Source: Chryseobacterium sp. UBA6632 (GTDB taxonomy: Bacteria > Bacteroidota > Bacteroidia > Flavobacteriales > Weeksellaceae). From it: a stretch of DNA of 13,735 nt. The notes under the pieces are model-generated. The model had not been told where the DNA came from, did not search any database, and saw nothing but the letters and a program-made list of their open reading frames with translations. Both the position numbers and the translations under genes were made by a program. Positions 203 to 13,735 of the stretch are shown one piece after another; within the stretch, counting starts at the first letter, position 1; the number at the start of each line of letters is the position of its first letter. The stretch spans positions 1 through 13,735 of the forward strand of contig DKLU01000146.1 in the NCBI GenBank assembly GCA_002455915.1. The letters are read 5' to 3'.

Positions 203-209
203 TTATATC

Positions 210-848: not shown

Positions 849-857
849 ATCTTTGTT

Positions 858-949
858 GTCTTTGTTAAGTGAAACGCCTTTGCGAACTTAAAAACATTTA
901 TTTATTAAAAAGAAACTTAGCGCTCTTTGCGTTTAAAAGATAAAATAAA
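858..949 (+). repeat. Dispersed intergenic repeat R1, copy 1
   Basis: This about 90-nt stretch recurs at 11004-11084 in the same orientation. Shared blocks include GTGAAACGCCTTTGCGAAC and CTTAGCGC-nCTTTGCGTT. The two blocks within one copy are partly complementary (AACGC...GCGTT), so the repeat can form an imperfect hairpin. It lies directly before the ATG of the MoxR gene, as copy 2 lies before the YkuK-like gene. I associate similar sequences with flavobacterial intergenic regions, so it is likely a genome-wide repeat and not specific to these systems. Confidence 0.7.
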
Positions 950-954
950 AATTA

Positions 955-2804: not shown

Positions 2805-5191
2805 ATCAATATTTCCAATCGTATGAAAATTATTTCTGGGAATGGACGACCGATGAAGACGTTCCCGATGAATCCGGCTATCATGAAAACAATCTTATTT
2901 CGATCCCGAATATAGGGTTCATTGCGTATAGAGCTTATGTGATCGAAGTTTTGAAAATGTTAAAAGTAGGTTTCCCGAGTTTTGGTTCTCTGCTTTTAAC
3001 TTTGTATGCCACTCAGGATGGGTATATCAATTTTAATGATGCATTGGCTCCGACAAAGAATTTTTACGGCGATGGAGATGCTGTAAAAGGAATTGTGAAT
3101 ATAACGGTTGATTTTCTGGAGCGCGTAAAAAGTTTAGATAAAGTCTATAAAAAAGGTCAAAATAGAATCACGCTTTTACAAACCTTATTTGGAAGCGTTT
3201 ATCTTCGATTGTCGTCCGGAAATTCTGAATTAATTTTAGGAAGATACCGAAAAAGACCGCATAAAATTGGTGAAAGCGCAGTTAAAAAGTATGCAACTCC
3301 CAACTTTGTTTATAATGATCTACGGATTTTTGAACGATTAAACCAAATATTTCCTACAACACAGTCCATTATTGATGCATTACAGGGAAAAATTGATGAT
3401 CTTGAATTGGAAGATGAAATTGCCGAAGATGAAGCCACTGTAGAAAGTGGCGGAGATGATTTCATTCAGGAATTGATAGAAGAGCCAAAAACATTTCAGG
3501 TTGGAAGTTTAATTAAAAGAATTTGGAGCGGTTTAAAAATTCCGATGAAGCATCTTTCACCTGGCGAACAGCCAATTGGCGGCGTTTCTGATATGACGAA
3601 TAAAGGGGAACTTCACAGAATGCTTTTGTCTGAATTTGCTAATGAAGATGAGGTTTTCATGAGTAGAATTGCCAATAATGAGGCATTGTATATTCAAAGG
3701 GAAATTCCGCCTGAAGAAAATATTTTTGAAAGAATTATTTTAATCGATACTTCTCTGAAAAATTGGGGAACGCCGAAGGTTTTGTCTTTTGCTTCCACAA
3801 TTGCGATCATCAAACATCCGAAAGCACACACGGAATGCAAAGTTTTTGCCTTGGGTAAAAATATCACACCGATGTCTTTGGATAAAGTGGAAGAAGTGGT
3901 TGAAAACCTGAATCAGGTGAGTGGTTTATTGGATGTTTCACCAGCATTGGACGAGTTTTTCAGTAAAAAGCATTCTGAAAAAGATCTGGAAGTTTTCTTT
4001 GTTACGAATGAGGAAAATTTAGCCAATCCCAATCTTCAGAAGGTGATTCACGAGAATAGAGATCGATTGAAATTTATTGTAACCACTTCGGCAAATGGTG
4101 AACTGAATTTTTATAAACATCACAACGGAGCCAGAAAACATATTCAGAAAATTATCTTGCCTTTGCAGGAATTATGGGCAAATCCTCCAAAGAAAAAGAC
4201 GGTTCAAAATAATAATGCTCAGAAAAGAGGCTCCAAAACTCCGGTTCCGTTGAATTATCCGGTGCTGTTGCCAACGCCGAAAAGTAGAATTGCCACTTTT
4301 TTATATGAGGGAGAATTTTATATTTTAAGCAATAAAAAACAGTTGCTGCGAACGTATTTGTCAGACAATTATTACAACAAAAATATTTATGTAAGTTCTA
4401 GAATTCATCGTGGTTCAGAGGTTTTGGTTGAAAATATTTCCATAAAACCGAAAGGACAGTTTGCTTTGGCTAAAGATAAACAGGGAAGTTATATTATTTG
4501 CCAATATCAGCCGGATAAAAAATTACTTTCAAAACTGAATGTGATTACCGGAGAATATTCTGATCTGAATGTAACGGGACAAAATATTCCGTTGAATTTT
4601 AATCTTATTTACTTTAACCGAAATTTTTATCTGCATGAAGATGGTTTTCCGATGATCTTCAAAATTAATATTGAAGGTAAAATTTCTATAGAACAGGTAG
4701 AAAATAATGAAGAAATAAGCAGACGATTTATCCGAAACACGGCAGAGCTGGCGAGGCTTCATAATGGTGGAGAAAATATTTTGAGCAATTTTGGAATCAT
4801 AGGAATTAATGAAGCACAAGAATTAGTGGTTTCCAAATTGGCTTTATCGCGTAGGTTTGATAATGTATATAATTTTAATAAAAATCTTATGGATTTGGAT
4901 GTCATCGCAAGCCAGAATAAGAACAAATATACTTTTGGAGATGGCAGCGAAATCATCACCGATACCCGCGGAATGCTCACTTTTAAAAGCAGCAACAAAC
5001 ATATTCCTACTTTTTATATACCTTCCACGCAATACGGTTATCTTGCGTTGGCAACCGGAAAAGATTTTGGCGGTTCAGAATATTATCTGCCTAAAAATAC
5101 GCAGTTGAAGATTAAAGAAATGGACGAAATGTATACGGATTATATGAAGAATTTCATTAAACATATTTTGGATTATGGAACTAAGAATTAA
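2795..5191 (+). CDS. Large vWA plus predicted beta-propeller protein of the MoxR-vWA ternary system
   Basis: A 798-residue protein with three parts. Residues 1-300 are mostly helical and end in a segment (about 245-300, containing the GGVSD and LSEFANEDE-type motifs) typical of the N-terminal extension of MoxR-partner vWA proteins. Residues about 312-450 are a vWA fold, but the metal site is DTSLK (318-322) rather than DxSxS, so metal binding may be lost or changed. After a basic, Asn/Lys-rich linker (465-485), residues about 490-775 are repetitive beta-rich sequence consistent with a beta-propeller. It overlaps both neighbours (10 and 17 nt). In these systems the vWA protein is the adaptor between the MoxR ATPase and its target; the propeller would supply binding specificity. 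Domain boundaries are estimates by eye. Confidence 0.85.
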   Translation: MDINQYFQSYENYFWEWTTDEDVPDESGYHENNLISIPNIGFIAYRAYVIEVLKMLKVGFPSFGSLLLTLYATQDGYINFNDALAPTKNFYGDGDAVKGIVNITVDFLERVKSLDKVYKKGQNRITLLQTLFGSVYLRLSSGNSELILGRYRKRPHKIGESAVKKYATPNFVYNDLRIFERLNQIFPTTQSIIDALQGKIDDLELEDEIAEDEATVESGGDDFIQELIEEPKTFQVGSLIKRIWSGLKIPMKHLSPGEQPIGGVSDMTNKGELHRMLLSEFANEDEVFMSRIANNEALYIQREIPPEENIFERIILIDTSLKNWGTPKVLSFASTIAIIKHPKAHTECKVFALGKNITPMSLDKVEEVVENLNQVSGLLDVSPALDEFFSKKHSEKDLEVFFVTNEENLANPNLQKVIHENRDRLKFIVTTSANGELNFYKHHNGARKHIQKIILPLQELWANPPKKKTVQNNNAQKRGSKTPVPLNYPVLLPTPKSRIATFLYEGEFYILSNKKQLLRTYLSDNYYNKNIYVSSRIHRGSEVLVENISIKPKGQFALAKDKQGSYIICQYQPDKKLLSKLNVITGEYSDLNVTGQNIPLNFNLIYFNRNFYLHEDGFPMIFKINIEGKISIEQVENNEEISRRFIRNTAELARLHNGGENILSNFGIIGINEAQELVVSKLALSRRFDNVYNFNKNLMDLDVIASQNKNKYTFGDGSEIITDTRGMLTFKSSNKHIPTFYIPSTQYGYLALATGKDFGGSEYYLPKNTQLKIKEMDEMYTDYMKNFIKHILDYGTKN

Positions 5192-6902
5192 ACCTTTTCC
5201 GAAAAACAGCTATCCAAAGAAAGGACTTTTGATAAAAGGTTCTTCACCTTTGGTATGGCTTCAGGAAATGGAATTGTTAGGAATTGATCTGAATGAGGTG
5301 AAATCTTTTGCGATTCCGTCTAATGAACCGAATATTTTATACGGTTGTTTTTTGATTTTCAATGGTTTTGCTCCTAATGAAATTGGAAAAAATGCTTATT
5401 TTCAGTCGGTTGATGATCGATTGTTTATTCCTGAAAATACTATTTTTTATCCGAAGATTTTGCCGGAAGAGTGGAAAAGTTCAGGTTCAGAATATCTGAT
5501 TATGCATCCTGATTTTGGTTTGGTGAAATTGTCAGAGCAAATTAATTGGCTGGAAGTCATTCAATCTCCTTTGCTGGATTCTTCGAAAGTTCGAAAACCT
5601 TCAAACGGAGTTAAAATTCCTTCTGAAATTAAGAGTTATACCGTGGAGATGGATGATGATAAGGTGTTGGAAGCTTTATCTAAACCTAAAACCGATGAAG
5701 AATGGATGAAAGATTTACCATTCGATCTGAAAAAAGTATTAGCAGGAAATCAAAAGGAAATTGAAAAATATTTAAAATATATCGAGCAGCATCCGGATAG
5801 AATCGTGGATTTGGGTGTACCGTTGGATGTGATGGGAACTTCACGCGGTGATGGTTTCAGCAAATTTAAATTTGGCGACGGAATGTTCGGTAGATTATTT
5901 GGAAATATATTTGGCGGAAATAATAATTCAGCTGAAAATTTTTCCGATAATGAACGTCCTCGTAAAAAAAGCTATTTCTGGATATTTTGGGTGATCATTA
6001 TTATATTTTCCATCATAAGATTTGCGATACGATGGGATAAAATGAACTCTACACCTGAAAAAAGTGAAAATGTTCAGACGAGTAACCTTCCGGTAATTTC
6101 AAAACCATCAGATCCGCTGATGTTCGAATCGGGAGTTACGGAAATAGATATGAAAATTGATTCTATTTATCGCGAAAAGAGAACACAACTTTCAAGAGAA
6201 CTCAACAAAACGAGACAAATTTACACACATAATGATGATTTGGTAACTCAGCATCATCTTCAGAATGGCGGACGAAATCTGGAAACTGTAGAAAATGATA
6301 TTGCGATCACAAAAAATAAAATGAAAAGGTCGAAAGATTCTCTGAAGCAGATTTATAATCAGAAAATTTTTCAGCAGGTAGAGGAAAAATCAACAAGTTT
6401 TAAGAAAAAAATTGCTGATTCTCTGAAACAATCAACCGGAAAACCTGCCGATAAAGGTTTGGTGAAAAGCATTTGGAATAAAAAACAAATTTTGATGATC
6501 GATTCTCTAGGAAAGTATTACGGAACAAAAGAAGAACCCGAACTTCCTGTTATTCATGATGGTAAAAATAATTTTGAAGAACTGCAAAATGCAACACCGA
6601 AGAATAATACCTCATTTATGGAAATCGTCTGGCTGATCATCTTTATGATAGGAGCGGTAGGACTTTATAATTATCTGGTAAAGAGAAATTATTTTGATAT
6701 CGGCGGCGAAAATATTCCGACGGGAGTGAAAGTATTACTCATGATTATCCTTTTGGGAATGTTGCTTTATATTTTTTATCCGCTCATTAATATGTTTGGC
6801 TACAACTGGTTTGTCTGGTTGCTCATCGTGTGTGTTATCGTCTTATTATATCGACTATTTAGTAAAGATAAAACCATCTTAAAATCTGATAAAAATGAAT
6901 AA
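5175..6902 (+). CDS. Four-pass membrane protein of the MoxR-vWA system
   Basis: A 575-residue protein with an N-terminal soluble domain (about 1-140), a linker with a Gly/Phe-rich stretch (226-250), TM1 (about 267-286), a charged helical or coiled-coil segment (about 320-450) and three further TM helices (about 482-502, 517-538, 541-562). There is no signal peptide; the basic PRKK motif just before TM1 suggests that the N-terminal domain is cytosolic, which would place the helical segment in the periplasm and the C-terminus (KSDKNE) back in the cytosol. It overlaps the upstream gene by 17 nt and the downstream gene by 8 nt. It probably anchors the complex to the inner membrane. The N-terminal domain may be one of the bpX domains, but I cannot assign it. 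No enzymatic motif is visible. Confidence 0.8.
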   Translation: MELRIKPFPKNSYPKKGLLIKGSSPLVWLQEMELLGIDLNEVKSFAIPSNEPNILYGCFLIFNGFAPNEIGKNAYFQSVDDRLFIPENTIFYPKILPEEWKSSGSEYLIMHPDFGLVKLSEQINWLEVIQSPLLDSSKVRKPSNGVKIPSEIKSYTVEMDDDKVLEALSKPKTDEEWMKDLPFDLKKVLAGNQKEIEKYLKYIEQHPDRIVDLGVPLDVMGTSRGDGFSKFKFGDGMFGRLFGNIFGGNNNSAENFSDNERPRKKSYFWIFWVIIIIFSIIRFAIRWDKMNSTPEKSENVQTSNLPVISKPSDPLMFESGVTEIDMKIDSIYREKRTQLSRELNKTRQIYTHNDDLVTQHHLQNGGRNLETVENDIAITKNKMKRSKDSLKQIYNQKIFQQVEEKSTSFKKKIADSLKQSTGKPADKGLVKSIWNKKQILMIDSLGKYYGTKEEPELPVIHDGKNNFEELQNATPKNNTSFMEIVWLIIFMIGAVGLYNYLVKRNYFDIGGENIPTGVKVLLMIILLGMLLYIFYPLINMFGYNWFVWLLIVCVIVLLYRLFSKDKTILKSDKNE

Positions 6903-7920
6903 ACAAAGATTTACAGATAAATTTATCGCGGCACTTTTTATCCTGATATTCATTAAAATATTCGGAATTCTGGCCGAGCTTTTCCATAAGAGCTTTTGGG
7001 ATGTGTTTGCTACTTTTTTAATTTTTGTAGTAGTGGCTATTGTTGTGCTTATTGTGGTTATTTTTCAATCTGACAAAGAAATAAACAATGCCAATGCTGG
7101 AAAAGGTGGCAGATCGATGGCGGGAAATAGCTCGTATGTAGAATCCTCAGTTTTCAACAGACTTCATAATATATACGAAGAACGTGCGCAAAAATATATT
7201 TCCGAGAAAGATTACAGAAATGCGGCAAAAGTGTATATCAATCTTTTGAAAGATAATTATCGCGGTGCAAAAACATTGGCAGACGGCGAATTGTATAACG
7301 AAGCAGCAGTAATTTACCTCAAAAAATTAAATAATAAATCTGAAGCAGCCCATTGTTACGAAAAAGCAAAACAGTATAAAAAGTCGATTGAATTATATAA
7401 AGAATTGGGGCAAAAAGAAAAAGTGGGAGATCTGTATAAGGAAATTAATGAGGTTGAGAATGCCGACAATTATTATCAAATGGTGGTAGATGATTATGTG
7501 AAATATAACCAAATGGTAAAAGCTTCTTTAATTTATCGTAAAAAAATGGAAAAACCGGAAGCAGCTCAAAAAATTCTACTTCAGGGCTGGGAAGAAAATA
7601 AAGATGCTTTTAATTGTTTGAATAACTATTTTGCGAATATCTTCGATGTTAAAAATCTGGATTCTGCGATTCGTGAAGTGTATAAAAAGACGCCTTCCGA
7701 GAAAAAATCGATTTATCTGGATGCAATGAAGCATGAATTTAAAAAAGATGTTCAGCTTCAGCCGACCGTAAGAAATATTGCTTACGAAATTATTGCTGAA
7801 AAAATTAAAACCCATTCTGAAATAGTGAATGAATTGAAACATTTCAATCCTGATGATGAAGTAATTTTAAAGGATATTTCAAGATATAAAATGAATCGGA
7901 GTAAAATTTTTGGACATTAA
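6895..7920 (+). CDS. Two-pass membrane protein with TPR-like helical domain
   Basis: A 341-residue protein. Two N-terminal TM helices (about 9-28 and 36-57) are followed by a flexible Gly/Asn/Ser stretch (65-80) and a long helical domain whose repeating pattern (DYRNAAKVYINLL, LYNEAAVIYLKKL, QYKKSIELYKELG; residues about 95-235) is characteristic of TPR or SEL1-like repeats. Such domains act as protein-binding scaffolds. It overlaps the preceding gene by 8 nt and is the last gene of the block. With both termini cytosolic, the TPR domain could present substrates or partners to the MoxR-vWA complex; that is inference. Confidence 0.8.
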   Translation: MNKQRFTDKFIAALFILIFIKIFGILAELFHKSFWDVFATFLIFVVVAIVVLIVVIFQSDKEINNANAGKGGRSMAGNSSYVESSVFNRLHNIYEERAQKYISEKDYRNAAKVYINLLKDNYRGAKTLADGELYNEAAVIYLKKLNNKSEAAHCYEKAKQYKKSIELYKELGQKEKVGDLYKEINEVENADNYYQMVVDDYVKYNQMVKASLIYRKKMEKPEAAQKILLQGWEENKDAFNCLNNYFANIFDVKNLDSAIREVYKKTPSEKKSIYLDAMKHEFKKDVQLQPTVRNIAYEIIAEKIKTHSEIVNELKHFNPDDEVILKDISRYKMNRSKIFGH

Positions 7921-7936
7921 AATTTTATCTATAAAT

Positions 7937-8027
7937 GCTTCGACTTCGCCCAGCATGACCTCTCTAATACTAACTGTTTTTATTAGCGGTTAATTTTTAG
8001 CATTGTCATGCTGAGCGAAGTCGAAGC
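7937..8027. repeat. 23-bp inverted repeat downstream of the MoxR block
   Basis: The arms 7937-7959 and 8005-8027 are inverted copies with one mismatch (core CTTCGACTTCGC and its complement), separated by 45 nt. No T-run follows the right arm, so it is not a classic intrinsic terminator, although it could act as a 3' end stabiliser. I know near-identical sequences as common dispersed repeats in flavobacterial genomes. Confidence 0.75.
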
Positions 8028-8115
8028 GTCTGCAAATCCTTAATAATTAACAATAATGATGAGGTTATTTAGGCTGCTAATCATCCATTATTCTATTTTA
8101 ATTAAGAAAAATAAT

Positions 8116-8123
8116 TATCTTTG
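8116..8123 (+). promoter_or_regulatory. Promoter P1 -7 element (TATCTTTG)
   Basis: TATCTTTG, followed by CACC, is a full TAnnTTTG match. No convincing -33 TTG is seen at the expected distance. It lies 13 nt before the ATG of the 42-codon ORF and would drive the first small unit, which ends at the terminator at 8296-8324. Confidence 0.65.
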
Positions 8124-8136
8124 CACCAATAAAATT

Positions 8137-8265
8137 ATGACAATACAAAGAGCACATATCAGTTTAAATCTATGCGATCGCCCTGTAGTAAAGGGATCGT
8201 TCGGATATGAATGGATGATATTGAATGAGGCGAAATGTGCTTGCTTTGAAAATTATTTACTGTAA
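8137..8265 (+). CDS. Small ORF 1, 42 residues, possible leader peptide
   Basis: The peptide begins MTIQRAHISLNLCDR and ends ENYLL, with three Cys (residues 13, 34, 36) and no signal peptide. The frame is open further upstream to 8056, but P1 (8116-8123) lies inside that extension, so ATG 8137 is preferred. It has its own promoter and terminator. GAGGCG at 8227-8232, within the ORF, is the exact complement of CGCCTC (8299-8304) in the 5' arm of the terminator, which would allow an antiterminator. It weakly resembles small ORF 2 (an IS...NL..R.P....GY...IL pattern). It could be a regulatory leader peptide or a real small protein; coding status is uncertain. Confidence 0.45.
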   Translation: MTIQRAHISLNLCDRPVVKGSFGYEWMILNEAKCACFENYLL

Positions 8266-8295
8266 ACTCGTAAAAAATTAAACAAAATACTGCAG

Positions 8296-8324
8296 AAACG
8301 CCTCGATGATCGGGGCGTTTTTTG
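8296..8324 (+). terminator. Intrinsic terminator of small unit 1
   Basis: AAACGCC (8296-8302) pairs with GGCGTTT (8314-8320), followed by a continuing T-run. The stem lies 30 nt after the stop of small ORF 1. Its 5' arm can alternatively pair with GAGGCG inside that ORF. Confidence 0.85.
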
Positions 8325-8550
8325 TGTTTTTAGGGCAGAAATTATTTAGAATGAAAAAAAATAACCATAAAAATGAAAATTATTTAATAACAAATGAACA
8401 ATTAATAAGAAAATAAAGCGTGATAAGTAACCCGATGAGAGACAGTCATTTAGGTATTTAAGACATCTGCAAAATATTGCTGACGGAAATTCTTTATCCT
8501 AAATTTTAATCATAATTAATTGATTTTCAAATGTTTAAATGAAAAATAAA
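8325..8550. other. Intergenic stretch between the two small units, nothing identified
   Basis: About 226 nt of AT-rich sequence with no ORF, tRNA-like fold or strong hairpin that I could see. It separates terminator 1 from promoter P2. Confidence 0.5.
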
Positions 8551-8582
8551 TTTGCGGGTTAAAAAAAATCATCTTTACTTTG
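8551..8582 (+). promoter_or_regulatory. Promoter P2 of small unit 2 and probably of the tRNA-like array
   Basis: TTTG at 8551-8554 and TTACTTTG at 8575-8582 are separated by 20 nt, matching the Bacteroidota TTTG-N19-TAnnTTTG arrangement with one deviation (TT for TA). The start would be near 8590. The roughly 60-nt leader contains a TTGAAAG/CTTTCAA hairpin (8593-8599 with 8615-8621), and the first arm can also pair with TTTCAA at 8608-8613, so two alternative leader folds exist. Confidence 0.65.
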
Positions 8583-8651
8583 CAACCGAAAATTGAAAGC
8601 AACAAGTTTTCAACCTTTCAAACAAACTTTTTTTAAAACAAGAAAAATAAA

Positions 8652-8789
8652 ATGAAACAATTACATAACATATCTAATTTATCTTCAAGACAACCCGGTA
8701 TAGAGCCGACAGGGCAAGGGTATGCTTGTATTATTCTTCTTGATAGTGAATTTGTGGATAAAAGGTGCTTATATAAATGGGTCAGCTAA
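8652..8789 (+). CDS. Small ORF 2, 45 residues, possible leader peptide of the array
   Basis: The ORF begins MKQLHNISNLSSRQPG and ends YKWVS. It is soluble, with Cys26 and Cys39 and no known domain. It sits between P2 and a strong terminator, 24 nt before the stem. AGGTGCTT (8763-8770), near the end of the ORF, can pair with AAGCGCCT (8814-8821), the 5' arm of the terminator (8 bp with one G-U). Ribosome position on this ORF could therefore decide whether the terminator forms and whether the tRNA-like genes downstream are transcribed. It resembles small ORF 1 weakly. Coding status and the regulatory role are inference from layout. Confidence 0.45.
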   Translation: MKQLHNISNLSSRQPGIEPTGQGYACIILLDSEFVDKRCLYKWVS

Positions 8790-8812
8790 TAAACTGACAC
8801 GTCTAAAAATAT

Positions 8813-8842
8813 AAAGCGCCTCCCAAAAAGAGGCGCTTTTTT
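8813..8842 (+). terminator. Strong intrinsic terminator directly before the tRNA-like array (candidate attenuator)
   Basis: AAAGCGCCTC (8813-8822) pairs perfectly with GAGGCGCTTT (8830-8839), with a 7-nt loop and a T-run. Only about 10 nt separate the T-run from the first tRNA-like gene, leaving no room for a separate promoter, so the array is probably reached by read-through. A competing pairing of the 5' arm with 8763-8770 is available. Confidence 0.85.
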
Positions 8843-8851
8843 ATGTTTTAT

Positions 8852-8926
8852 GGTTTCTCTAGCTTATTTGGTAAAGCGTCGGTTTGTGGCACCGGAGAAC
8901 AGGGTTCGATCCCCGGAGATACCCCA
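8852..8926 (+). tRNA. tRNA-His-like gene, anticodon GTG
   Basis: Cloverleaf: acceptor GTTTCTC/GAGATAC with a T3-T70 mismatch, preceded by G-1 and followed by C73 and an encoded CCA, which are the tRNA-His identity features. D-stem GCTT/AAGC, anticodon loop TTGTGGC (8884-8890) with U33, and T-arm CAGGG/CCCCG with one A-C mismatch and a 6-nt TTCGAT loop. The shortened T-loop and the mismatches suggest a divergent or non-canonical copy and not the housekeeping gene. Confidence 0.75.
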
Positions 8927-8930
8927 AAAA

Positions 8931-9011
8931 GTGAATAGTCAATGGTCAATTTTACTTCGTAAGTTAATTTTAAAATTGATAACCAAAGCAGATTGACGAT
9001 TGCTTATTCAC
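8931..9011. repeat. Inverted-repeat spacer S1 (His to Ile)
   Basis: Begins GTGAATAGTCAATGGTCAAT and ends ATTCAC, so the ends can pair across the spacer. The internal parts resemble S2-S5. The spacer begins a few nucleotides after the His-like CCA and ends 12 nt before the Ile-like gene. Confidence 0.7.
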
Positions 9012-9022
9012 AAATTAAAAAC

Positions 9023-9096
9023 AATCTCATAGCTCAATGGGTTGGAGCATCGGTCTGATACGCCGAAGGTTGAAGGTTCGAGTCCTTCTGGGATTA
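9023..9096 (+). tRNA. tRNA-Ile-like gene, anticodon GAT
   Basis: A fully paired cloverleaf: acceptor AATCTCA/TGGGATT (7 pairs, one G-U), D-stem GCTC/GAGC, anticodon stem TCGGT/GCCGA with loop CTGATAC (GAT), and T-arm GAAGG/CCTTC with loop TTCGAGT. A73, no encoded CCA. The A1-U72 first pair is unusual for bacterial tRNA-Ile. The best-preserved member of the array together with the Tyr and Gln types. Confidence 0.85.
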
Positions 9097-9110
9097 CAGA
9101 AATAGGAATG

Positions 9111-9184
9111 GTGAATAGTGAATTTTGTTTCACAAGTGAATTTAAAAATTGACAAGCAAAGCGGATTGACAATTAACCATTCAC
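9111..9184. repeat. Inverted-repeat spacer S2 (Ile to Asp)
   Basis: Begins GTGAATAGTGAATTTTG and ends CCATTCAC. Shares with S3-S5 the core AAGTGAATTTAAAAATTGAC, followed by a short GC-containing hairpin and ATTGAC. Confidence 0.7.
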
Positions 9185-9194
9185 AAATAAAAAA

Positions 9195-9266
9195 GGTCTA
9201 TTGAGGTAATGGCTAACCTTCCTGACTGTCGCTCAGTCACTGCGAGTTCGATTCTCGCATAGACCG
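9195..9266 (+). tRNA. tRNA-Asp-like gene, anticodon GTC
   Basis: Acceptor GGTCTAT/ATAGACC (7 pairs) with G73, the Asp discriminator. D-stem AGGT/ACCT, anticodon stem CCTGA/TCAGT with a C-T mismatch at the top, loop CTGTCGC (GTC, U33 present), T-arm GCGAG/CTCGC with TTCGATT loop. Variable region of 4 nt; no encoded CCA. 72 nt in total. Confidence 0.8.
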
Positions 9267-9268
9267 AA

Positions 9269-9325
9269 GATTCACGGAAAATTCCGGATCCGACTGTCTC
9301 TCGGAGAAGATTTTTAAAGTGAATC
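9269..9325. repeat. Inverted-repeat spacer between Asp- and Pro-like genes
   Basis: GATTCAC (9269-9275) and GTGAATC (9319-9325) pair; an inner TTCCG/CGGAGAA pairing can extend it. It is not a member of the S family but has the same layout, filling the spacer from tRNA end to tRNA start. Confidence 0.6.
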
Positions 9326-9332
9326 TGCAAAA

Positions 9333-9404
9333 CTGGAAAGATAACGGTGGTTGTTTACCCGTCTTGGACGCGGGAGGTCGCAAGTTCGAATCTTGCTTTC
9401 CAGA
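9333..9404 (+). tRNA. tRNA-Pro-like gene, anticodon TGG
   Basis: Acceptor CTGGAAA/TTTCCAG with C1-G72 and A73, both typical of tRNA-Pro. Anticodon stem CCCGT/GCGGG, loop CTTGGAC (TGG, U33 present), T-arm GCAAG/CTTGC with TTCGAAT loop. The D-arm is weak (AAC/GTT with a T10-T25 mismatch), positions 8-9 are GA and A14 is replaced by G, so tertiary contacts may be compromised. Confidence 0.75.
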
Positions 9405-9413
9405 CGAAAAAAT

Positions 9414-9495
9414 GTGAATAGTCAATTGTGAATTTTGTTTTACAAGTGAATTTAAAAATTGACAAGCGAAGCAAATTGACCTATTCACAATTCAC
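9414..9495. repeat. Inverted-repeat spacer S3 (after Pro)
   Basis: Begins GTGAATAGTCAATTGTGAAT and ends ATTCACAATTCAC; the same core as S2. It separates the Pro-like gene from stem-bounded element A. Confidence 0.7.
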
Positions 9496-9523
9496 ACCAA
9501 GTTAATTGTTTCAAAAGAGAAAA

Positions 9524-9592
9524 AGAAAAGGTTTGTCGAGAGCAGACGATCTTTACGCCAAAAACACGATATAATATAGACAGGCTTTTTCT
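9524..9592 (+). ncRNA. Stem-bounded element A (candidate ncRNA, copy 1 of 4)
   Basis: AGAAAAGGTTTGTC (9524-9537) pairs with GACAGGCTTTTTCT (9579-9592) over 14 positions, three of them G-U. The 5' half continues with GAGAGCAGACGATCTTTACG, shared in pattern with elements B-D (AGA-nnn-TCT mini-hairpin). The interior is AT-rich and lacks a T-arm. Function unknown. Confidence 0.55.
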
Positions 9593-9647
9593 TAACTCAC
9601 TTTGAGGCTGGATGATGAAATTTTTAAACATAATATAAATTTTAGGT

Positions 9648-9713
9648 AAAATAAAGTTTGTCAAAGCGCAGAAGTTCTTATATCAAACAAAAAATTAAGA
9701 CAGGCTTTATTTT
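9648..9713 (+). ncRNA. Stem-bounded element B (copy 2 of 4)
   Basis: AAAATAAAGTTTGTC (9648-9662) pairs with GACAGGCTTTATTTT (9699-9713), 15 positions with two G-U. The 5' half reads AAAGCGCAGAAGTTCTTATA. It lies about 75 nt before the Cys-like gene; the interval is AT-rich with short inverted repeats. Element C has a nearly identical interior. Confidence 0.55.
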
Positions 9714-9788
9714 TTAATGAAAATTATAAAATTATAAAGGAGAAAAAGATCAATAATCATTTATCTCTTATCAACTATAATTAAAAAC

Positions 9789-9921
9789 GATGGTTCGCCG
9801 AAGTGGAAGAGTCGGGGCGGTCTGCAAAACCGTTGCGTAAGCTGAGTGAGTTTTGAAATGTGAAACATTCGTGAATTCAGATAAAAAAATAAAATGGTTA
9901 TGAACAATCTCATAACCATCT
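9789..9921 (+). tRNA. tRNA-Cys-like gene, anticodon GCA, with 58-nt T-loop
   Basis: Acceptor 5' strand GATGGTT (9789-9795), D-stem CCGA/TCGG, anticodon stem GCGGT/ACCGT, loop CTGCAAA (GCA). The variable region is long (TGCGTAAGCTGA), unlike normal tRNA-Cys and similar to the Tyr-like gene of this array. The T-stem 5' strand GTGAG (9846-9850) is not closed by a normal 7-nt loop. Its partner CTCAT appears at 9909-9913, followed by AACCATC (9914-9920), a perfect match to the acceptor, and U73, the Cys discriminator. The T-loop would thus hold 58 nt. The 3' part can alternatively form a 10-bp hairpin (9894-9903 with 9910-9919). It may be a precursor with an insertion, or a broken gene. Confidence 0.5.
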
Positions 9922-9942
9922 CAAATAACTAAAATGAGATTA
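9906..9942 (+). other. Mini acceptor-like hairpin overlapping the Cys-like 3' end
   Basis: AATCTCAT (9906-9913) pairs with ATGAGATT (9934-9941) around a 20-nt loop, followed by A. The 11 bases ACAATCTCATA at 9904-9914 are identical to the start of the Ile-like gene (9021-9031). It may be a deleted Ile-type remnant or an alternative fold competing with the Cys-like acceptor. Confidence 0.35.
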
Positions 9943-9947
9943 GTTCC

Positions 9948-10024
9948 GAAGAAAAAGAAAAGTTTGTCGAGCGTAGAAGTTCTTATATCAAACAAAAAAT
10001 TAAAGACAGGCTTTGTTTTTCTTC
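9948..10024 (+). ncRNA. Stem-bounded element C (copy 3 of 4)
   Basis: A long stem: 9948-9968 pairs with 10005-10024 (about 19 positions) around a small asymmetric internal loop, including GTTTGTC/GACAGGC with two G-U pairs. The interior GAGCGTAGAAGTTCTTATAT is almost identical to element B. It precedes the Tyr-like gene by about 80 nt. Confidence 0.55.
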
Positions 10025-10040
10025 ACAAGAAATTAAAAGT

Positions 10041-10088
10041 TAAGAATTGGAAGATTATTATAAAATATTACTCATTACCAATTGCTTA
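10041..10088. repeat. Inverted-repeat spacer before the Tyr-like gene
   Basis: TAAGAATTGG (10041-10050) and CCAATTGCTTA (10078-10088) pair with a small bulge; AT-rich loop. Confidence 0.5.
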
Positions 10089-10103
10089 TTACTCATGAAA
10101 ACC

Positions 10104-10190
10104 GGAAGTACGCCGAAATTGGAGAGTCGGGGCAGACTGTAAATCTGTTGCTTCATTGCTGAGTAGGTTCGAATCCTACTACTTCCACCA
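10104..10190 (+). tRNA. tRNA-Tyr-like gene, anticodon GTA
   Basis: A class II tRNA of good quality: acceptor GGAAGTA/TACTTCC, D-stem CCGA/TCGG, anticodon stem GCAGA/TCTGT, loop CTGTAAA (GTA), a 14-nt variable region, T-arm GTAGG/CCTAC with TTCGAAT loop, A73 and encoded CCA. The long variable region is normal for bacterial tRNA-Tyr. It could well be functional in translation. Confidence 0.85.
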
Positions 10191-10191
10191 A

Positions 10192-10262
10192 CTGCTGATA
10201 ATGTAATGGCAGCATGCAGGAAATGTACTCTTGTTGTTCAGGTTCGACTCCTGGTCAGATGG
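10192..10262 (+). tRNA. Degenerate tRNA-like gene, Thr-type anticodon TGT, lacking U33
   Basis: It starts 2 nt after the Tyr-like CCA. D-stem ATGT/GCAT, anticodon stem CAGGA/TCTTG, T-arm TCAGG/CCTGG with TTCGACT loop. The anticodon loop AATGTAC centres on TGT, but position 33 is A where U is nearly universal. The acceptor CTGCTGA/TCAGATG pairs at only 5 of 7 positions. The body resembles the Gln-like gene at 10901 (shared TCTTGTTGTTCAGGTTCGA). Unlikely to decode normally. Confidence 0.5.
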
Positions 10263-10278
10263 TCAAAGAAAGTGAAAT

Positions 10279-10351
10279 GTGAATAGTGAATTTTGCTCCG
10301 CAAGTGAATTTAAAGATTGACTACGAAGTAAATTGACGATTGACAATTCAC
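10279..10351. repeat. Inverted-repeat spacer S4 (Thr-like to Glu)
   Basis: Begins GTGAATAGTGAATTTTGC and ends CAATTCAC, with an inner TTGCTCCGCAA hairpin and the S-family core. It ends about 10 nt before the Glu-like gene. Confidence 0.7.
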
Positions 10352-10360
10352 AAGAAAAAC

Positions 10361-10433
10361 GCTCTATTCGTCTAACGGTTCAGGACGCCTGTCTTTCGAG
10401 CAGAAAACAAGGGTTCGATTCCCTTATAGAGTA
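10361..10433 (+). tRNA. tRNA-Glu-like gene, anticodon TTC
   Basis: Acceptor GCTCTAT/ATAGAGT (G1-U72 wobble), the GTCTAACGGTTCAGGAC D-arm typical of tRNA-Glu, anticodon stem CCTGT/GCAGA with a C-A mismatch at the top, loop CTTTCGA (TTC, U33 present), T-arm AAGGG/CCCTT with TTCGATT loop, A73, no encoded CCA. Confidence 0.8.
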
Positions 10434-10440
10434 CAGAAAA

Positions 10441-10522
10441 GTGAATAAGTGAATGGTGAATTTTGCTCCGCAAGTGAATTTTAAAAATTGACTACAAAGT
10501 AAATTGACGATTTAGAATTCAC
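10441..10522. repeat. Inverted-repeat spacer S5 (after Glu)
   Basis: Begins GTGAATAAGTGAATGGTGAA and ends GAATTCAC. It shares TTTTGCTCCGCAAGTGAAT with S4. It separates the Glu-like gene from element D. Confidence 0.7.
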
Positions 10523-10545
10523 AAAGAAATAGGTTTAAATGGAAA

Positions 10546-10621
10546 GGGAAAAGTTTGTCAAGCGCAGAAGATCTATACGAATATAACAGGCATAGTTTAT
10601 AAATATAGACAAGCTTTTCTC
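10546..10621 (+). ncRNA. Stem-bounded element D (copy 4 of 4)
   Basis: GGGAAAAGTTTGTC (10546-10559) pairs with GACAAGCTTTTCTC (10608-10621), 14 positions with two G-U. The 5' half AAGCGCAGAAGATCTATACG matches the other copies; the rest is longer and different. The change to GACAAGC still keeps the stem paired, which hints at selection on structure. Confidence 0.55.
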
Positions 10622-10632
10622 AGACCTAATAC

Positions 10633-10722
10633 ATAAGTAATGAGTAATGTGCAATGAGTAATTATTGCGAAGGTTAATATGAATTTATAAAGCATAATTT
10701 TTTTTATTACACATTACTTATT
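10633..10722. repeat. AT-rich inverted-repeat spacer before the Leu-like gene
   Basis: The ATAAGTAATG...TAATGTG region near 10633-10651 is partly complementary to ATTACACATTACTTATT near 10706-10722, giving an imperfect hairpin whose right arm ends shortly before the Leu-like gene. Confidence 0.45.
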
Positions 10723-10735
10723 AATCATGAAACTT

Positions 10736-10809
10736 GCGGGAATGGTGGAAATGGCAGACACACTTGATTTAGGCTCAAGGTTTTGGGGGTTCGAATCCCT
10801 CTTTCCGTA
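10736..10809 (+). tRNA. tRNA-Leu-like gene, anticodon TAG, without long variable arm
   Basis: Acceptor GCGGGAA/TTTCCGT (two G-U), D-arm in typical Leu style (GTGG...GGCAGACAC), anticodon stem CTTGA/TCAAG, loop TTTAGGC (TAG), T-arm GGGGG/CCCTC with TTCGAAT loop, A73. The variable region is only GTTTT, whereas bacterial tRNA-Leu has a long variable arm, so this is a reduced class I-sized version. Confidence 0.75.
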
Positions 10810-10815
10810 CAAAAG

Positions 10816-10893
10816 TATAATTGATAAGTCATCAATGATAATTGATTAATCTAAAAAATAAAATCAATTATAACTCATCATTTATCAATTATA
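10816..10893. repeat. Long imperfect inverted-repeat spacer (Leu to Gln)
   Basis: TATAATTGATAA (10816-10827) and TTATCAATTATA (10882-10893) are exact complements. The pairing continues inward (TGATAATTGATT with AATCAATTAT), for arms of roughly 34 nt around a short loop. It fills almost the whole interval between the two tRNA-like genes. Confidence 0.75.
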
Positions 10894-10900
10894 ATTAAAC

Positions 10901-10973
10901 TGATTCATAGTGTAATGGGTTAGCAAACAAGACTTTGACTCTTGTTGTTCAGGTTCGAGTCCTGATGAATCAA
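10901..10973 (+). tRNA. tRNA-Gln-like gene, anticodon TTG
   Basis: A perfect 7-bp acceptor TGATTCA/TGAATCA with U1-A72 as in tRNA-Gln, anticodon stem CAAGA/TCTTG, loop CTTTGAC (TTG, U33 present), T-arm TCAGG/CCTGA with TTCGAGT loop, A73. The D-stem has one mismatch (G10-A25). Last tRNA-like gene of the array. Confidence 0.8.
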
Positions 10974-11003
10974 CAGAAAAGGTTACAACAAAAAAACTCT
11001 TTT

Positions 11004-11084
11004 TTCTTTGCTGAGTGAAACGCCTTTGCGAACATAAAAACAGATAGTTGGTAAAAAAACTTAGCGCACTTTGCGTTAAAATAA
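11004..11084 (+). repeat. Dispersed intergenic repeat R1, copy 2
   Basis: The second copy of the repeat at 858-949, in the same orientation: GTGAAACGCCTTTGCGAAC, a divergent middle, then AACTTAGCGCACTTTGCGTT. It ends about 37 nt before the YkuK-like ATG. No clear TAnnTTTG promoter is visible in it, so the downstream genes may depend on transcription through the array. Confidence 0.7.
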
Positions 11085-11121
11085 ATATTTAAACAAATAC
11101 AAAACAAAACATGTAGAAAAA

Positions 11122-11607
11122 ATGGAAACGCAACAACAAACTTGGCAGAACATGATGGGAAAAATTTTCCAACAGTCTATCACACAGTTGGTAGAAGAAG
11201 CCATCATCCGCGAACAGGCAAATGGACATCGACTGAAAGTATGTGTGGGTTCAGACTCTCACGTTTATGGTGATGCTATTAATTATGCTACGGCAGTTGT
11301 CTTTATTCGTGAGGGAAAAGGAGCGTTTACCTTTATCAGAAAAGAAAGAGAAATACAGAGTATCAGTATCAAAGAGCGTATGCTGAACGAGGTGAATAAA
11401 TCAGTGGAAATCGCTTATGCAATTTGCTCTATTCTGGAAACTTATGATGTGGAAATGGAGGTACACGCAGACATTAACACCGATCCGGATTTCAAATCCA
11501 ACGTCGCTTTGAGAGACGCAATGGGATATATTCTGGGGATGGGATATGTGTTTAAAGCAAAGCCTTATGCATTCGCAAGTTCAAATTGTGCTGATATGAT
11601 GGTGTGA
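11122..11607 (+). CDS. YkuK-family (DUF458) RNase H-fold protein
   Basis: A 161-residue soluble protein that matches the YkuK family in length and pattern. The first strand carries VCVGSDSH (residues 40-47, Asp45), a mid-protein acidic helix follows, then VHADINTD (114-121, Asp116) and a C-terminal SSNCAD (Asp158). This spacing of acidic residues is that of an RNase H-like fold with two-metal chemistry, so a nuclease acting on RNA or RNA-DNA is likely, though YkuK proteins are not well characterised to my knowledge. It is the first protein gene after the tRNA-like array, on the same strand, which makes array-derived RNAs a plausible substrate. The start at 11122 is the first Met in frame after a stop in the leader. 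Confidence 0.85.
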   Translation: METQQQTWQNMMGKIFQQSITQLVEEAIIREQANGHRLKVCVGSDSHVYGDAINYATAVVFIREGKGAFTFIRKEREIQSISIKERMLNEVNKSVEIAYAICSILETYDVEMEVHADINTDPDFKSNVALRDAMGYILGMGYVFKAKPYAFASSNCADMMV

Positions 11608-11610
11608 AAT

Positions 11611-11692
11611 AGCTGGAAGTGGGATGATGGGAGATGGAAGTTTTTTTACAGTATAAATTTAACTTCCTTCATCTAGCTTCTAGGATCCATCC
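11611..11692. repeat. Hairpin-forming intergenic repeat
   Basis: GATGGAAGTT (11633-11642) is complementary, with a small bulge, to AACTTCCTTCATC (11661-11673), and the flanks AGCTGGAAG and TAGCTTC can extend the stem. Similar GGAAGT/ACTTCC text occurs near 105-140. It could be a partial terminator or processing site between the YkuK-like gene and the ATP-grasp genes. Confidence 0.55.
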
Positions 11693-11706
11693 AAAAAAAT
11701 AAAAAA

Positions 11707-12519
11707 ATGAAAACAATTTTAATCATTAACGGAGAAAAATACTGGAAAGATTATTTTGCAGGATTTAATGTGGTCCAGAAAAAAGTTCAGACCTCAGAAT
11801 TTATTGTAAAAGATGCTGAATTGTATGTAATTGATGAAGATGGAGTTTGTAAACCGGATGTAATTTTTTGGAGATTGGGGGCAATAAATCCTGAAATAAA
11901 ACACAGAAATATTTTGGAGTTAATTGAATATTCCGGAGTTCCTTGTGTGAATTCAGCTTCAACATTATTAATGGGTTATGAAAGATTATCAATGCTAAAT
12001 AGATTGAAAAGACTTGGATTACCTGTTGTTGATTTTAATGTAGCAACCAATACAACCCAATTAAAAAATCTGGAAATGCAGTTTCCTTTCGTGGTTAAAG
12101 TTGGAAATCATCACGGTGGATATGGGAAAAGTTTGGTTTCGACCGAAGAACAATGGGAAGAACTGAAAGATTTACTGTTTATTCATCAGGATTATGTGAC
12201 GACAGAGAAATTTATTAATTATAAATATGACATTCGTTATCTGGCTATCAATGATAAAATTTGGGCAATGAAAAGAAAAGGCAAATATTGGAAAGCCAAT
12301 TCTTTAACCCAAGAATATCAAATTGTTGAGCCGGAAAAAGAATGGGTAGAAAAAGTAAAATTGTTACAGGAAAACATCAAAGCAGATATCGTTGCGATTG
12401 ATCTTCTGGAAACAGAAAGCGGAGAAAAAGTGATTTTAGAATACAACGATATTCCCGGACTTTCAGGATTTCCTGAAGATGCAAAAATGGAATTGGCGAG
12501 TATTGTAAAAAGTAAATAA
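11707..12519 (+). CDS. RimK-like ATP-grasp enzyme
   Basis: A 270-residue ATP-grasp protein of compact RimK/glutathione-synthetase-like form. The pre-ATP-grasp part is about residues 1-95. The nucleotide-binding loop is FVVKVGNHHGGYGKS (128-142, with Lys131), EKFI follows at 167-170, an Arg at 177, and the metal site is formed by D231 and the E245-Y-N247 pair in VILEYNDIPG. ATP-grasp enzymes join a carboxylate to an amine or thiol through an acyl phosphate; the substrate here is unknown. The next gene, 25 nt on, is a second ATP-grasp protein, so the two may act on the same substrate in turn. No peptide resembling a known RiPP precursor for such ligases is obvious, although the small ORFs upstream have not been excluded. 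Confidence 0.85.
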   Translation: MKTILIINGEKYWKDYFAGFNVVQKKVQTSEFIVKDAELYVIDEDGVCKPDVIFWRLGAINPEIKHRNILELIEYSGVPCVNSASTLLMGYERLSMLNRLKRLGLPVVDFNVATNTTQLKNLEMQFPFVVKVGNHHGGYGKSLVSTEEQWEELKDLLFIHQDYVTTEKFINYKYDIRYLAINDKIWAMKRKGKYWKANSLTQEYQIVEPEKEWVEKVKLLQENIKADIVAIDLLETESGEKVILEYNDIPGLSGFPEDAKMELASIVKSK

Positions 12520-12544
12520 AAAGAACCTTTAAAAACTAATAACC

Positions 12545-13321
12545 ATGTATTTTTTAGTTCAGGCTAATGTGTATTTCGATCCCGATCATTACAAAATTTT
12601 TGATGCTTTGGAAGAATTAAATATCGATTACAGTGTAATTAATATTCCTCCAACCGCAGAAAAAATCGATTTCGAAACATACAGAAAAGATGTTTTCGTG
12701 TATGGTTCGGTGACGATTGCAAGATTGGCAAAACAAAATACAGATTGGTTTCCCGGTTCTTTTTATGGAGGCAATCATTTGTATGAAATGTATTCTAAAT
12801 ATTATGGTGAAAATCTTCTCAATCACAAAGTTTCTGTACATAAAATTTCAGAACAATTGATTTGGAAAAAAGATGAAATAAAATTCATTAAACCTTACAA
12901 CGAAGCGAAAATTTTTACAGGCAAAGTTTTTAATGAATTGGAATGGAAAGATTTTGTTTTTGAAGCTTTGAAAAATCAAGCTAATAGAATTACAGAGGAT
13001 TCTTTAATTCAAATTTCTGAAGCAAAACGAACAATAAAAGAAGCAAGACTTTGGATTGTTGGCGGACAAGTTATCGATGCAGGATATTATAAATTTAATG
13101 ATAATGCTCCTTTCGAAGAAAAAGTTTCAGAAGACGGATTGAATTTCGCTAATGAAATGATTGAAGTGTTCAACCTTGAAGAAGCTTTTGTAATGGATAT
13201 CTGTTTAACCGATGAAGGTTGGAAAATTGTTGAAATAAATTGTATCAACAGTTCCGGATTTTATCCAAACACAAACGTGAAAAGTATTATCAAAGCTTTG
13301 AATATTTACTTTTCAAATTAA
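12545..13321 (+). CDS. Second ATP-grasp enzyme, R2K-like
   Basis: A 258-residue protein. The N-terminal half (1-110) is a pre-grasp-like alpha/beta region. It is followed by FIKP (114-117, Lys116), KEARLWIVGG (165-174, with E166 and R168), FVMDIC (215-220, Asp218) and VEINCIN (229-235, with E230 and N232), the conserved Lys, Arg and acidic metal ligands of the R2K ATP-grasp clade. Members of that clade are known from predicted conflict and phage-related gene clusters; no substrate is established to my knowledge. It is 12 nt from the cREC gene and 25 nt from the first ATP-grasp gene, so the three are surely one operon. It is quite unlike the first ATP-grasp protein, so this is not a recent duplication. 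Confidence 0.8.
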   Translation: MYFLVQANVYFDPDHYKIFDALEELNIDYSVINIPPTAEKIDFETYRKDVFVYGSVTIARLAKQNTDWFPGSFYGGNHLYEMYSKYYGENLLNHKVSVHKISEQLIWKKDEIKFIKPYNEAKIFTGKVFNELEWKDFVFEALKNQANRITEDSLIQISEAKRTIKEARLWIVGGQVIDAGYYKFNDNAPFEEKVSEDGLNFANEMIEVFNLEEAFVMDICLTDEGWKIVEINCINSSGFYPNTNVKSIIKALNIYFSN

Positions 13322-13333
13322 AAAATTAAAGCA

Positions 13334-13705
13334 ATGGAAATAACAAAAAGATTACTGTTTCTGGACGATATAAGATATCCGATTGAGGCGTATCATTACA
13401 CCAAACAGGATATTTTCCTCAGAAACGACTGGCATATCGTTCGAAATTATGAGCAGTTTGTCAACCGAATTTTGGAAAAAGGACTTCCGGAAATGATCTC
13501 TTTTGACCACGACCTTGCTGATGAACATTATTTGAAACCGAATTCTCAGGAATTTGTTGAAAAAACAGGCTACGATTGTGCAAAATGGTTGGTAGAATAT
13601 TGTATGGATAATTATTTAGACTTACCCAACTTCTATTGCCACTCCATGAATCCTGTTGGAAAGGAAAATATTGAAAGCCTTTTAAAAAACTTTAAAAAAT
13701 TGTAA
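13334..13705 (+). CDS. cREC-type receiver domain protein (predicted cyclic-phosphate processing)
   Basis: A 123-residue single-domain protein of receiver-like fold. It has LLFLDDIR near the N-terminus (residues 7-14, D11, D12, R14), SFDHDLADEH (56-65, D58, H59, D60) and YCHSMNPVGKENI (101-113, H103, S104, N106). This His/Asp-rich pattern is that of the family named cyclic-phosphate-processing receiver (cREC), predicted in studies of bacterial RNA repair to act on 2',3'-cyclic phosphate ends left by endoribonucleases. It lacks the usual receiver layout of one phospho-acceptor Asp and a conserved Lys. It sits in the ATP-grasp operon, with its stop codon sharing one base with the next ATG. The family call is confident; the reaction is prediction. 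Confidence 0.8.
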   Translation: MEITKRLLFLDDIRYPIEAYHYTKQDIFLRNDWHIVRNYEQFVNRILEKGLPEMISFDHDLADEHYLKPNSQEFVEKTGYDCAKWLVEYCMDNYLDLPNFYCHSMNPVGKENIESLLKNFKKL

Positions 13706-13735
13706 TGGATATTTTTAGATTGATTCAAGATATAA
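13705..13735 (+). CDS. Start of the next operon gene, cut by the window end
   Basis: ATG at 13705 overlaps the preceding stop (TAATG) and opens a frame reading MDIFRLIQDI to the end of the window. Ten residues are too few to identify it. From the context, an RNA ligase such as RtcB, a nucleotidyltransferase or another ATP-grasp or repair protein would fit. Confidence 0.6.
   Translation, partial: MDIFRLIQDI

Follow-up and report, generated by a model that had tools for sequence, protein, structure and literature searches.

Leader-peptide attenuation and inducible transfer RNA (tRNA) arrays are both known phenomena. Attenuators of the trp/his type consist of a short open reading frame (ORF), an intrinsic terminator, a mutually exclusive antiterminator, and a run of one codon. 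RNA-repair systems with cognate noncoding RNAs, in which RtcB, RNA ligase, TROVE, SPFH, and tRNA-like RNAs occur together, were reportedly described by Burroughs and Aravind in 2016. Here, we analyzed a stretch of 13,735 nucleotides (nt) from Chryseobacterium sp. UBA6632 (GenBank assembly GCA_002455915.1, contig DKLU01000146.1, positions 1 to 13,735 of the forward strand; hereafter the window), in which a tRNA array is preceded by two leader modules and followed by genes for YkuK and putative RNA-repair proteins. We consider it likely that this is a chromosomal, inducible operon of spare tRNAs and RNA-repair enzymes under a tandem attenuator that would test the translation of nearly every amino acid. 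Like the trp/his attenuators, the locus has a short ORF, an intrinsic terminator and, by prediction, a mutually exclusive antiterminator; unlike them, its leaders sample nearly all 20 amino acids, its modules are two in series, and its predicted output is tRNAs plus RNA repair. A multi-specificity array and leader attenuators, as proposed here, are not known to be part of the RNA-repair systems mentioned above.

Each known system shares one element with the locus. The toiL upstream ORF (uORF) of topAI-yjhQ and the whiB7 uORF sense several kinds of stall, and a stall anywhere within the toiL uORF is proposed to act as the switch, unmasking a ribosome-binding site (PMC12121999). The leaders proposed here would likewise respond to several kinds of stall; unlike for toiL, no unmasking of a ribosome-binding site is proposed, the targets differ, and an all-amino-acid composition is not mentioned for toiL in the accessible part of that paper (PMC12121999). 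The trn operon of Anabaena is a plasmid-borne array of 26 tRNAs repressed by the protein TrcR (PMC10272220). A supernumerary array that would stay silent until translation stress is common to both, whereas the Anabaena array sits on a plasmid under a protein repressor and its report, as far as accessible, mentions neither leader peptides nor repair genes (PMC10272220). Phage tRNAs with anticodon-loop changes are described as evading anticodon nucleases (PMC10264068). The array tRNAs similarly differ from the host set in their anticodon loops, but they are carried by the bacterium itself, at a locus whose YkuK gene was matched in nearly all sampled genomes of the genus. Neither an all-amino-acid leader nor this combination of operon parts appeared by title or abstract among the top literature matches, a search that lay mostly outside subscription papers and is no proof of novelty.

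In the window, tRNAs were called with ARAGORN and the Rfam model RF00005, which returned the same eight, all on the + strand and each of a different specificity: tRNA-His(GTG) at 8852–8925, tRNA-Ile(GAT) at 9023–9097, tRNA-Asp(GTC) at 9195–9266, tRNA-Pro(TGG) at 9333–9405, tRNA-Tyr(GTA) with an encoded CCA at 10104–10190, tRNA-Glu(TTC) at 10361–10434, tRNA-Leu(TAG) at 10736–10810, and tRNA-Gln(TTG) at 10901–10974. The first-pass annotation had counted ten co-directional tRNAs without a repeated specificity. Its remaining two are irregular members of the same strand, so that the array comprises eight regular and two irregular copies with each specificity once. The tRNA-Cys(GCA)-like copy (about 9789–9921), identified by reading the sequence beside a relative's copy, is recognizable, but extra sequence splits its T arm; it also resembles the array's Tyr copy (75% over 57 nt). 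The Thr(TGT)-like copy (about 10187–10265, ends approximate and set by eye) was missed by both programs, and the eight Thr(TGT) copies called by ARAGORN in relatives lack U33 in their loops. Between the array tRNAs are REP-like intergenic repeats, each about 89 nt long (8933–9021, 9106–9194, 9416–9504, and 10444–10532).

Relatives were gathered by a genome scan with a YkuK alignment, and the best 80 loci of at least 589 confirmed matches were compared; since the loci were chosen by YkuK, all array prevalence figures are conditional on that gene. Forty are Chryseobacterium/Epilithonimonas loci (L001–L039 and L041), nine are other array-bearing loci (L040, L042–L048, and L050), and 31 are array-less (L049 and L051–L080, from Pedobacter, Mucilaginibacter, Saprospiraceae, and others). 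Same-strand arrays stood upstream of YkuK in 49 of these 80 loci by ARAGORN, and the array is therefore not a chance grouping.

The first-pass annotation had raised the reading of the array as the genome's sole copies of these tRNAs. This fails in relatives, for which a housekeeping cluster is ruled out: in the Chryseobacterium genome G003 (79 tRNA matches, E up to 0.001), tRNAs outside the locus span all 20 amino acids; among them the array's anticodons recur, on sequences that differ considerably, and the Dokdonia genome likewise has a full set for the 20 amino acids apart from its array. The housekeeping tRNAs of G003 stood in for those of all 41 loci of the Chryseobacterium clade, on the assumption that such tRNAs are much the same within it. 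Of the 438 array tRNAs found by ARAGORN in these loci, five lack a same-anticodon copy in G003; among the other 433, the seven-base anticodon loop differs from the housekeeping loop in 360 and is identical in 73. Typical changes are G37 to A in Pro and Gln (the window's Pro loop, CTTGGAC, has A37 against the housekeeping G37), A37 to G or U in Glu, and changes at position 38 in Ile, Tyr, and Cys, while A37 of Asp became U in at least 22 of 24 copies and G in the window. The bodies have diverged as well. Identity between array tRNAs and their own housekeeping counterparts is 54 to 77% (three printed per class; lower for two Ile(TAT)). The array Leu(TAG), as in the window, has no long variable arm (75 nt in 25 of 32 copies and 73–74 in the rest, versus 83 in the housekeeping tRNA), and the array Cys has one (83 nt in 29 of 31 copies, versus 72). 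The Dokdonia array shows parallel changes, with 15 of 18 loops differing from its own housekeeping tRNAs, the Asp loop CTGTCTC, and a Leu of 75 nt.

The discriminator base is a tRNA identity element, and in 408 of the 438 array tRNAs it equals the housekeeping base of the same amino acid, both in A73 classes (271/293) and in non-A73 classes (137/145). By class, we found C in 36 of 37 His, U in 31 of 31 Cys, and G in 24 of 24 Asp, 19 of 20 Asn, and 16 of 16 Trp copies; in Dokdonia, 17 of 18 array tRNAs match. This retention argues for selection on charging, and because of it, the array tRNAs look chargeable, that is, like spares and not decoys.

Upstream of the first tRNA, at 8116–8845, lies a regulatory part that the first-pass annotation, which covered 8852–13735, missed. 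Two tandem modules of one design, each with a promoter-like element, a short ORF, and an intrinsic terminator, occupy it, all on the + strand. The Bacteroidetes −7 promoter consensus is TAnnTTTG. In the first module, the candidate promoter P1, with the Bacteroidetes-type −7 element TATCTTTG (8116–8123), stands 13 nt before the start codon of leader ORF LP1 (8137–8265) and is conserved in relatives; LP1 has 42 codons and is followed by terminator T1 (8294–8325). In the second, the candidate promoter P2, TTACTTTG (8575–8582), lies in a stretch where per-base conservation is 95% or more and precedes the 45-codon leader ORF LP2 (8652–8789) and terminator T2 (8813–8843), which is immediately 5′ of the first tRNA. 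Both leaders encode all 20 amino acids, and both terminators emerged from terminator search, covariation, and folding, the covariation being slight (one T2 pair and two T1 pairs changed on both sides). By complementarity and folding, the strand TGAGGCG within LP1 (8226–8232) is predicted to pair with CGCCTCG of T1, and AGGTGCTT within LP2 (8763–8770) with AAGCGCCT of T2. In the Rfam search of the leader region, only tRNA exceeded its curated threshold (Phe_leader reached 25.8 and 22.2 against 55 bits). Between T1 and P2, we also observed a 21-codon mini-ORF (MKKNNHKNENYLITNEQLIRK, 8351–8416, + strand) in the ORF list and conservation profile, and a further conserved stretch beyond it.

Each of the 41 clade loci has both leaders in the corresponding position; they start with ATG throughout and run to 42–43 codons for LP1 and 38–45 for LP2. 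An intrinsic terminator was found by script behind 81 of the 82 clade leaders, the 82nd being visible in the printed sequence. A single-codon run of the trp/his type was not found; each leader holds 18–20 amino-acid types in its 38–45 codons (n = 41), a range that is partly by choice, as the initial listing kept only ORFs with at least 18 types. Among 42 random codons, all 20 types would be expected with a probability of 0.003. Counting only the 30 LP1 codons before the antiterminator, 20 types were present in 17 of 41 loci (random probability 5e-5) and 19 or more in 35 (random probability 0.0012); the loci are related by descent, so these probabilities do not multiply. Taken together, the parts of LP1 and LP2 before the antiterminator hold 20 types in 34 of 41 loci and 19 in the other seven. 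When columns were shuffled among the 38 distinct LP1 parts, the mean fell from 19.1 to 18.4 types, and 0 of 2000 shuffles reached the observed value, a result to which relatedness could contribute. In an unfiltered control, 93 ORFs at terminators upstream of arrays had 16–20 types, 74 of them at least 19, whereas among 254 control terminators of the same loci, a comparable ORF was present at 39, only two of which had at least 19. Diverged versions of the leader modules occur in Flavobacteriaceae, and the nine divergent loci, taken alone, contribute 14 ORFs that differ from control terminators (p = 9e-5), a set in which the L046 ORF resembles the end of an exonuclease gene and the ORFs from Tenacibaculum are related to each other.

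A mutually exclusive antiterminator overlapping the ORF is predicted across the Chryseobacterium clade. A strand of at least 6 base pairs (bp) is present in 41 of 41 clade loci for both leaders, mostly ending 30 nt (LP1) and 16 nt (LP2) before the stop codon. RNA folded up to the 5′ arm of the terminator forms a long hairpin around the stop codon, with means of −18.6 kcal/mol for LP1 (including rows, L029 among them, in which the script's cut came too late) and −18.2 kcal/mol for LP2; the terminator core alone averages −12.8 and −11.3 kcal/mol, respectively. In the window, all four structures, terminators and antiterminators, fold better than shuffled sequences (z −3.3 to −4.7). One clade locus, L034, retains AGGTGCTT although the reading frame is shifted there, which suggests selection at the RNA level. 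Where the terminator arm has changed in Flavobacteriaceae, the LP1 copy has changed with it, as GGACGCT/AGCGTCC in L043, AGACGCTT/AAGCGTCT in L050, and GGATGCT in L048 (shuffle fractions of 0.003, 0.003, and 0.023). Antiterminators are weaker in L044, L045, and L047 and for LP2 of L040 (0.05–0.14).

From these ORFs, terminators, complementary strands, and their conservation, together with the separate housekeeping sets of two relatives, the kept discriminators, and the altered loops, we propose the following order of events. Transcription would begin at P1 and P2, and the leading ribosome would have to complete LP1 and LP2, peptides with nearly all amino acids. If it does, it would disrupt the antiterminator helix, so that the terminator would form and the array stay off; the 5′ strand of this helix is situated within the final third of the ORF, and the loop contains the stop codon. 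If it stalls upstream, where a charged tRNA is missing, for instance after a cut by an anticodon nuclease, or where translation is poisoned, the antiterminator would survive and RNA polymerase would read on into the tRNAs, YkuK, and the repair enzymes, all of which would be co-transcribed. The repair enzymes would then mend cut tRNAs while the loop-altered spare tRNAs sustain translation; with their kept identity and changed bodies and loops, the spares probably replace the lost tRNAs and escape the nuclease. A leader with nearly every amino acid would, in consequence, respond to the loss of almost any tRNA. The full form of the proposal, a universal codon attenuator whose leader peptide has been selected for the presence of all amino acids and answers almost any tRNA loss with the cell's own nuclease-resistant second tRNA set plus RNA repair, we regard as about evenly balanced between right and wrong. 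If true, it would amount to an immune-like response of bacteria to toxins that cut tRNAs, with one sensor for all, a reserve tRNA set guarded by a sensor that, because it translates all amino acids, works whatever the attacker. It would also explain why tRNA arrays stand beside RNA-repair genes, mirror on the host side the phage strategy of resistant tRNAs, and offer an ORF-based reporter for damage to nearly any tRNA. The purpose of supernumerary tRNA arrays would thereby become directly testable in a genus with 118 species genomes sampled.

Several observations weigh against this proposal. The duplex between leader and terminator arm is only moderately above chance, the median being reached by 2.3% of shuffled leaders for LP1 and 3.4% for LP2. 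In the window, the competing structures are about equally stable (full T1 −17.1 versus antiterminator −16.8 kcal/mol; full T2 −15.9 versus antiterminator −17.5 kcal/mol), and full-length folds without a ribosome favor the terminator in most printed examples, so that antitermination would hinge on the ribosome and on which helix folds first. No covariation was found in the antiterminators within the genus, where they hardly vary and thus give no such support. Among the Flavobacteriaceae, L043, L046, L048, and L050 have no convincing LP2 antiterminator, and in L042, the antiterminator is weak for both leaders. The coding signature of the leaders is weak: the ratio of nonsynonymous to synonymous polymorphism (pN/pS) is 0.70 for LP1, with 1.17 and 0.66 in the shifted frames and no clear third-position excess, and 0.60 for LP2 (22 sequences of equal length), with 0.82 and 0.88 in the shifted frames. 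Before the LP2 antiterminator, Trp is absent in 40 of 41 loci and Thr in 30 of 41, and two serial attenuators would consequently not simply sense those two. As for the tRNAs, the loops are unchanged in Lys (23/23) and Trp (16/16) and mostly in Asn (18/20) and Met (6/8), and the Thr copies are poor, lacking U33 and keeping the discriminator in four of eight TGT and neither of two AGT copies. Finally, the leaders include Ala, Gly, and Val, for which ARAGORN found no tRNA in the arrays of the Chryseobacterium clade.

Downstream of the array, the first-pass annotation had placed a YkuK-like RNase H, two ATP-grasp enzymes, and cREC on the + strand, and Pfam agrees: YkuK (PF04308) at 11122–11607, 97% identical to the YkuK protein of Chryseobacterium edaphi, a RimK-like ATP-grasp at 11707–12519, an R2K ATP-grasp (PF14243) at 12545–13321, and cREC_REC, a cyclic-phosphate-processing receiver domain (PF20274), at 13334–13705. 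Conserved synteny of array and operon, for which that annotation had suggested a search, extends across genera, so neither of the two grounds on which that annotation would have dropped its reading applies in the relatives. Within the fetched flanks of the 40 Chryseobacterium/Epilithonimonas loci, cREC is present in 35 and a T4 Rnl2-type RNA ligase in 25, the window stopping short of the ligase's place; SPFH is present in 14 and TROVE in nine, and TROVE occurs somewhere in 25 of 39 genomes searched. RtcB, SPFH, and TROVE, likewise suggested for a search nearby, thus turned up in subsets of relatives: outside the clade, SPFH follows in L040, L043–L047, and L050, RtcB lies upstream in four Flavobacteriaceae loci (L043, L044, L046, and L047), and L043 and L046 additionally carry an RF-1-domain gene that we read as PrfH-like. 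Linkage of cREC and RNA ligase is known from phage and cellular genomes, and R2K enzymes have been termed peptide ligases, according to one study (PMC7824862). The ATP-grasps, present in the flanks of 10 (RimK-like) and 12 (R2K) of the 40 clade loci, were ruled out as the core of the unit.

In one rival, what the leaders sense is not tRNA destruction but a general shortage of amino acids or antibiotics that target the ribosome, and the operon answers translation stress at large, as does Anabaena trn. Any stall would act alike on such leaders, and the Anabaena array is induced by translation inhibitors (PMC10272220). The neighbors of the array in relatives, however, include RNA ligases, cREC, TROVE, and SPFH, and starvation would presumably leave the spare tRNAs uncharged as well. 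We regard this rival as possible but clearly less probable than an operon of spare tRNAs and RNA repair.

Decoys or spare copies for anticodon nucleases, or guides and scaffolds for repair, had been the functions proposed by the first-pass annotation; spare copies fit best, and retention of the amino-acid-specific discriminator base makes the other two less fitting. In the decoy version, the array RNAs would carry no amino acid and would absorb anticodon nucleases as decoys or sensors, with the repair enzymes acting on cut decoys. The diverged bodies, the Leu without its long arm, the Thr loops without U33, and the interrupted Cys of the window would all suit such RNAs. A decoy, though, would have no need of a discriminator base, and even the Cys copies, long-armed and Tyr-like as they are, retain U73 without exception; moreover, the loops that nucleases would read are among the parts that changed. 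We consider decoys unlikely and prefer chargeable spares.

The arrays upstream of YkuK range from 2 to 18 tRNAs in the 49 loci that have them, which comprise all 40 Chryseobacterium/Epilithonimonas loci and nine others, including Tenacibaculum, Dokdonia, and Kordia; in Kordia (L050), the array lies 2.6–4 kb upstream of YkuK with other genes intervening. ARAGORN found no array in the other 31, although in L052 a pair of tRNAs lies some 4.5 kb downstream; 14 viral YkuK relatives gave no tRNA. Fourteen partner-protein queries (tblastn, E up to 1e-6) gave no match in the 31 array-less loci, some of them short. YkuK itself was matched in 114 of 118 sampled genomes of the genus, a count of this gene alone. 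In the family of the Dokdonia genome, it was matched in 16 of 199 genomes; the two strong matches (E <1e-60), one being Dokdonia itself, both carry arrays, and of the 14 weak matches, the four checked have none within about 1.5 kb on each side. Carriage on a plasmid or mobile element was not found, as judged indirectly from this frequency of YkuK in the genus and from a bpX neighbor in 36 of 40 loci. That the locus is an ordinary extra tRNA cluster, with chance upstream ORFs and terminators from ordinary transcription units, is highly improbable: tRNA arrays are reported in several bacteria, and the coding signature of the leaders is weak, but YkuK is nearly universal in the genus sample, leaders, terminators, and promoter-like elements hold fixed positions in the clade, and the amino-acid diversity of the leaders exceeds that at control terminators.

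Upstream of the leaders, the window contains a MoxR-vWA-bpX ternary system (bpX4, bpMoxR, bpX2, bpX0/1, and bpX3; 210–7917). The bpX genes adjoin the array in the 36 clade loci counted above; none of the system's genes is present in the flanks of the other four, and the system was ruled out as part of the unit. PADLOC defense models gave no match among nine proteins. In two of the genus genomes with a YkuK match, the gene is split into two partial, overlapping matches (G285 contig 1 and G260 contig 15).

A hairpin RNA is repeated four times on the + strand within the array. Its copies lie at 9518–9597, found by repeat comparison in the window, and at 9646–9716, 9950–10022, and 10540–10622, found by repeat comparison and pattern search. 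It has the form GUUUGUC.AGCGCAGAAG ... AGACAGGC with a 14-bp stem, four pairs of which show changes on both sides among 11 copies. A + strand pattern search detected it in 38 of 41 clade loci, always 155–1800 nt upstream of YkuK. It is Y-RNA-like by eye and is present in 24 of 25 genomes with TROVE and in 12 of 14 without.

Further tRNA-like genes were seen in relatives. In Dokdonia (L044, G005 contig 1, 67163–67354), weak tRNA-like matches lie between YkuK and SPFH, which we take to be possibly the SPFH-linked tRNA-like RNA reportedly described by Burroughs and Aravind in 2016, and single tRNAs directly follow YkuK in L045, L047, and L048. Kordia has a group of Met, Val, Gly, and Asp tRNAs (L050, 2186–2448). 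In G003 contig 6, a second cluster of odd tRNAs (L127, 10346–10657, reverse complement) lies about 15 kb upstream of the array and consists of a 71-nt Ser(GCT), Gly(TCC), Asp, and Gly(ACC), with neighbors that are SIR2- and TatD-like by eye. On contig 9 of the same genome (L117, 183250–183500), outside the locus, ARAGORN identified two tRNA-like genes with the four-base anticodons CTTG and CTTC.

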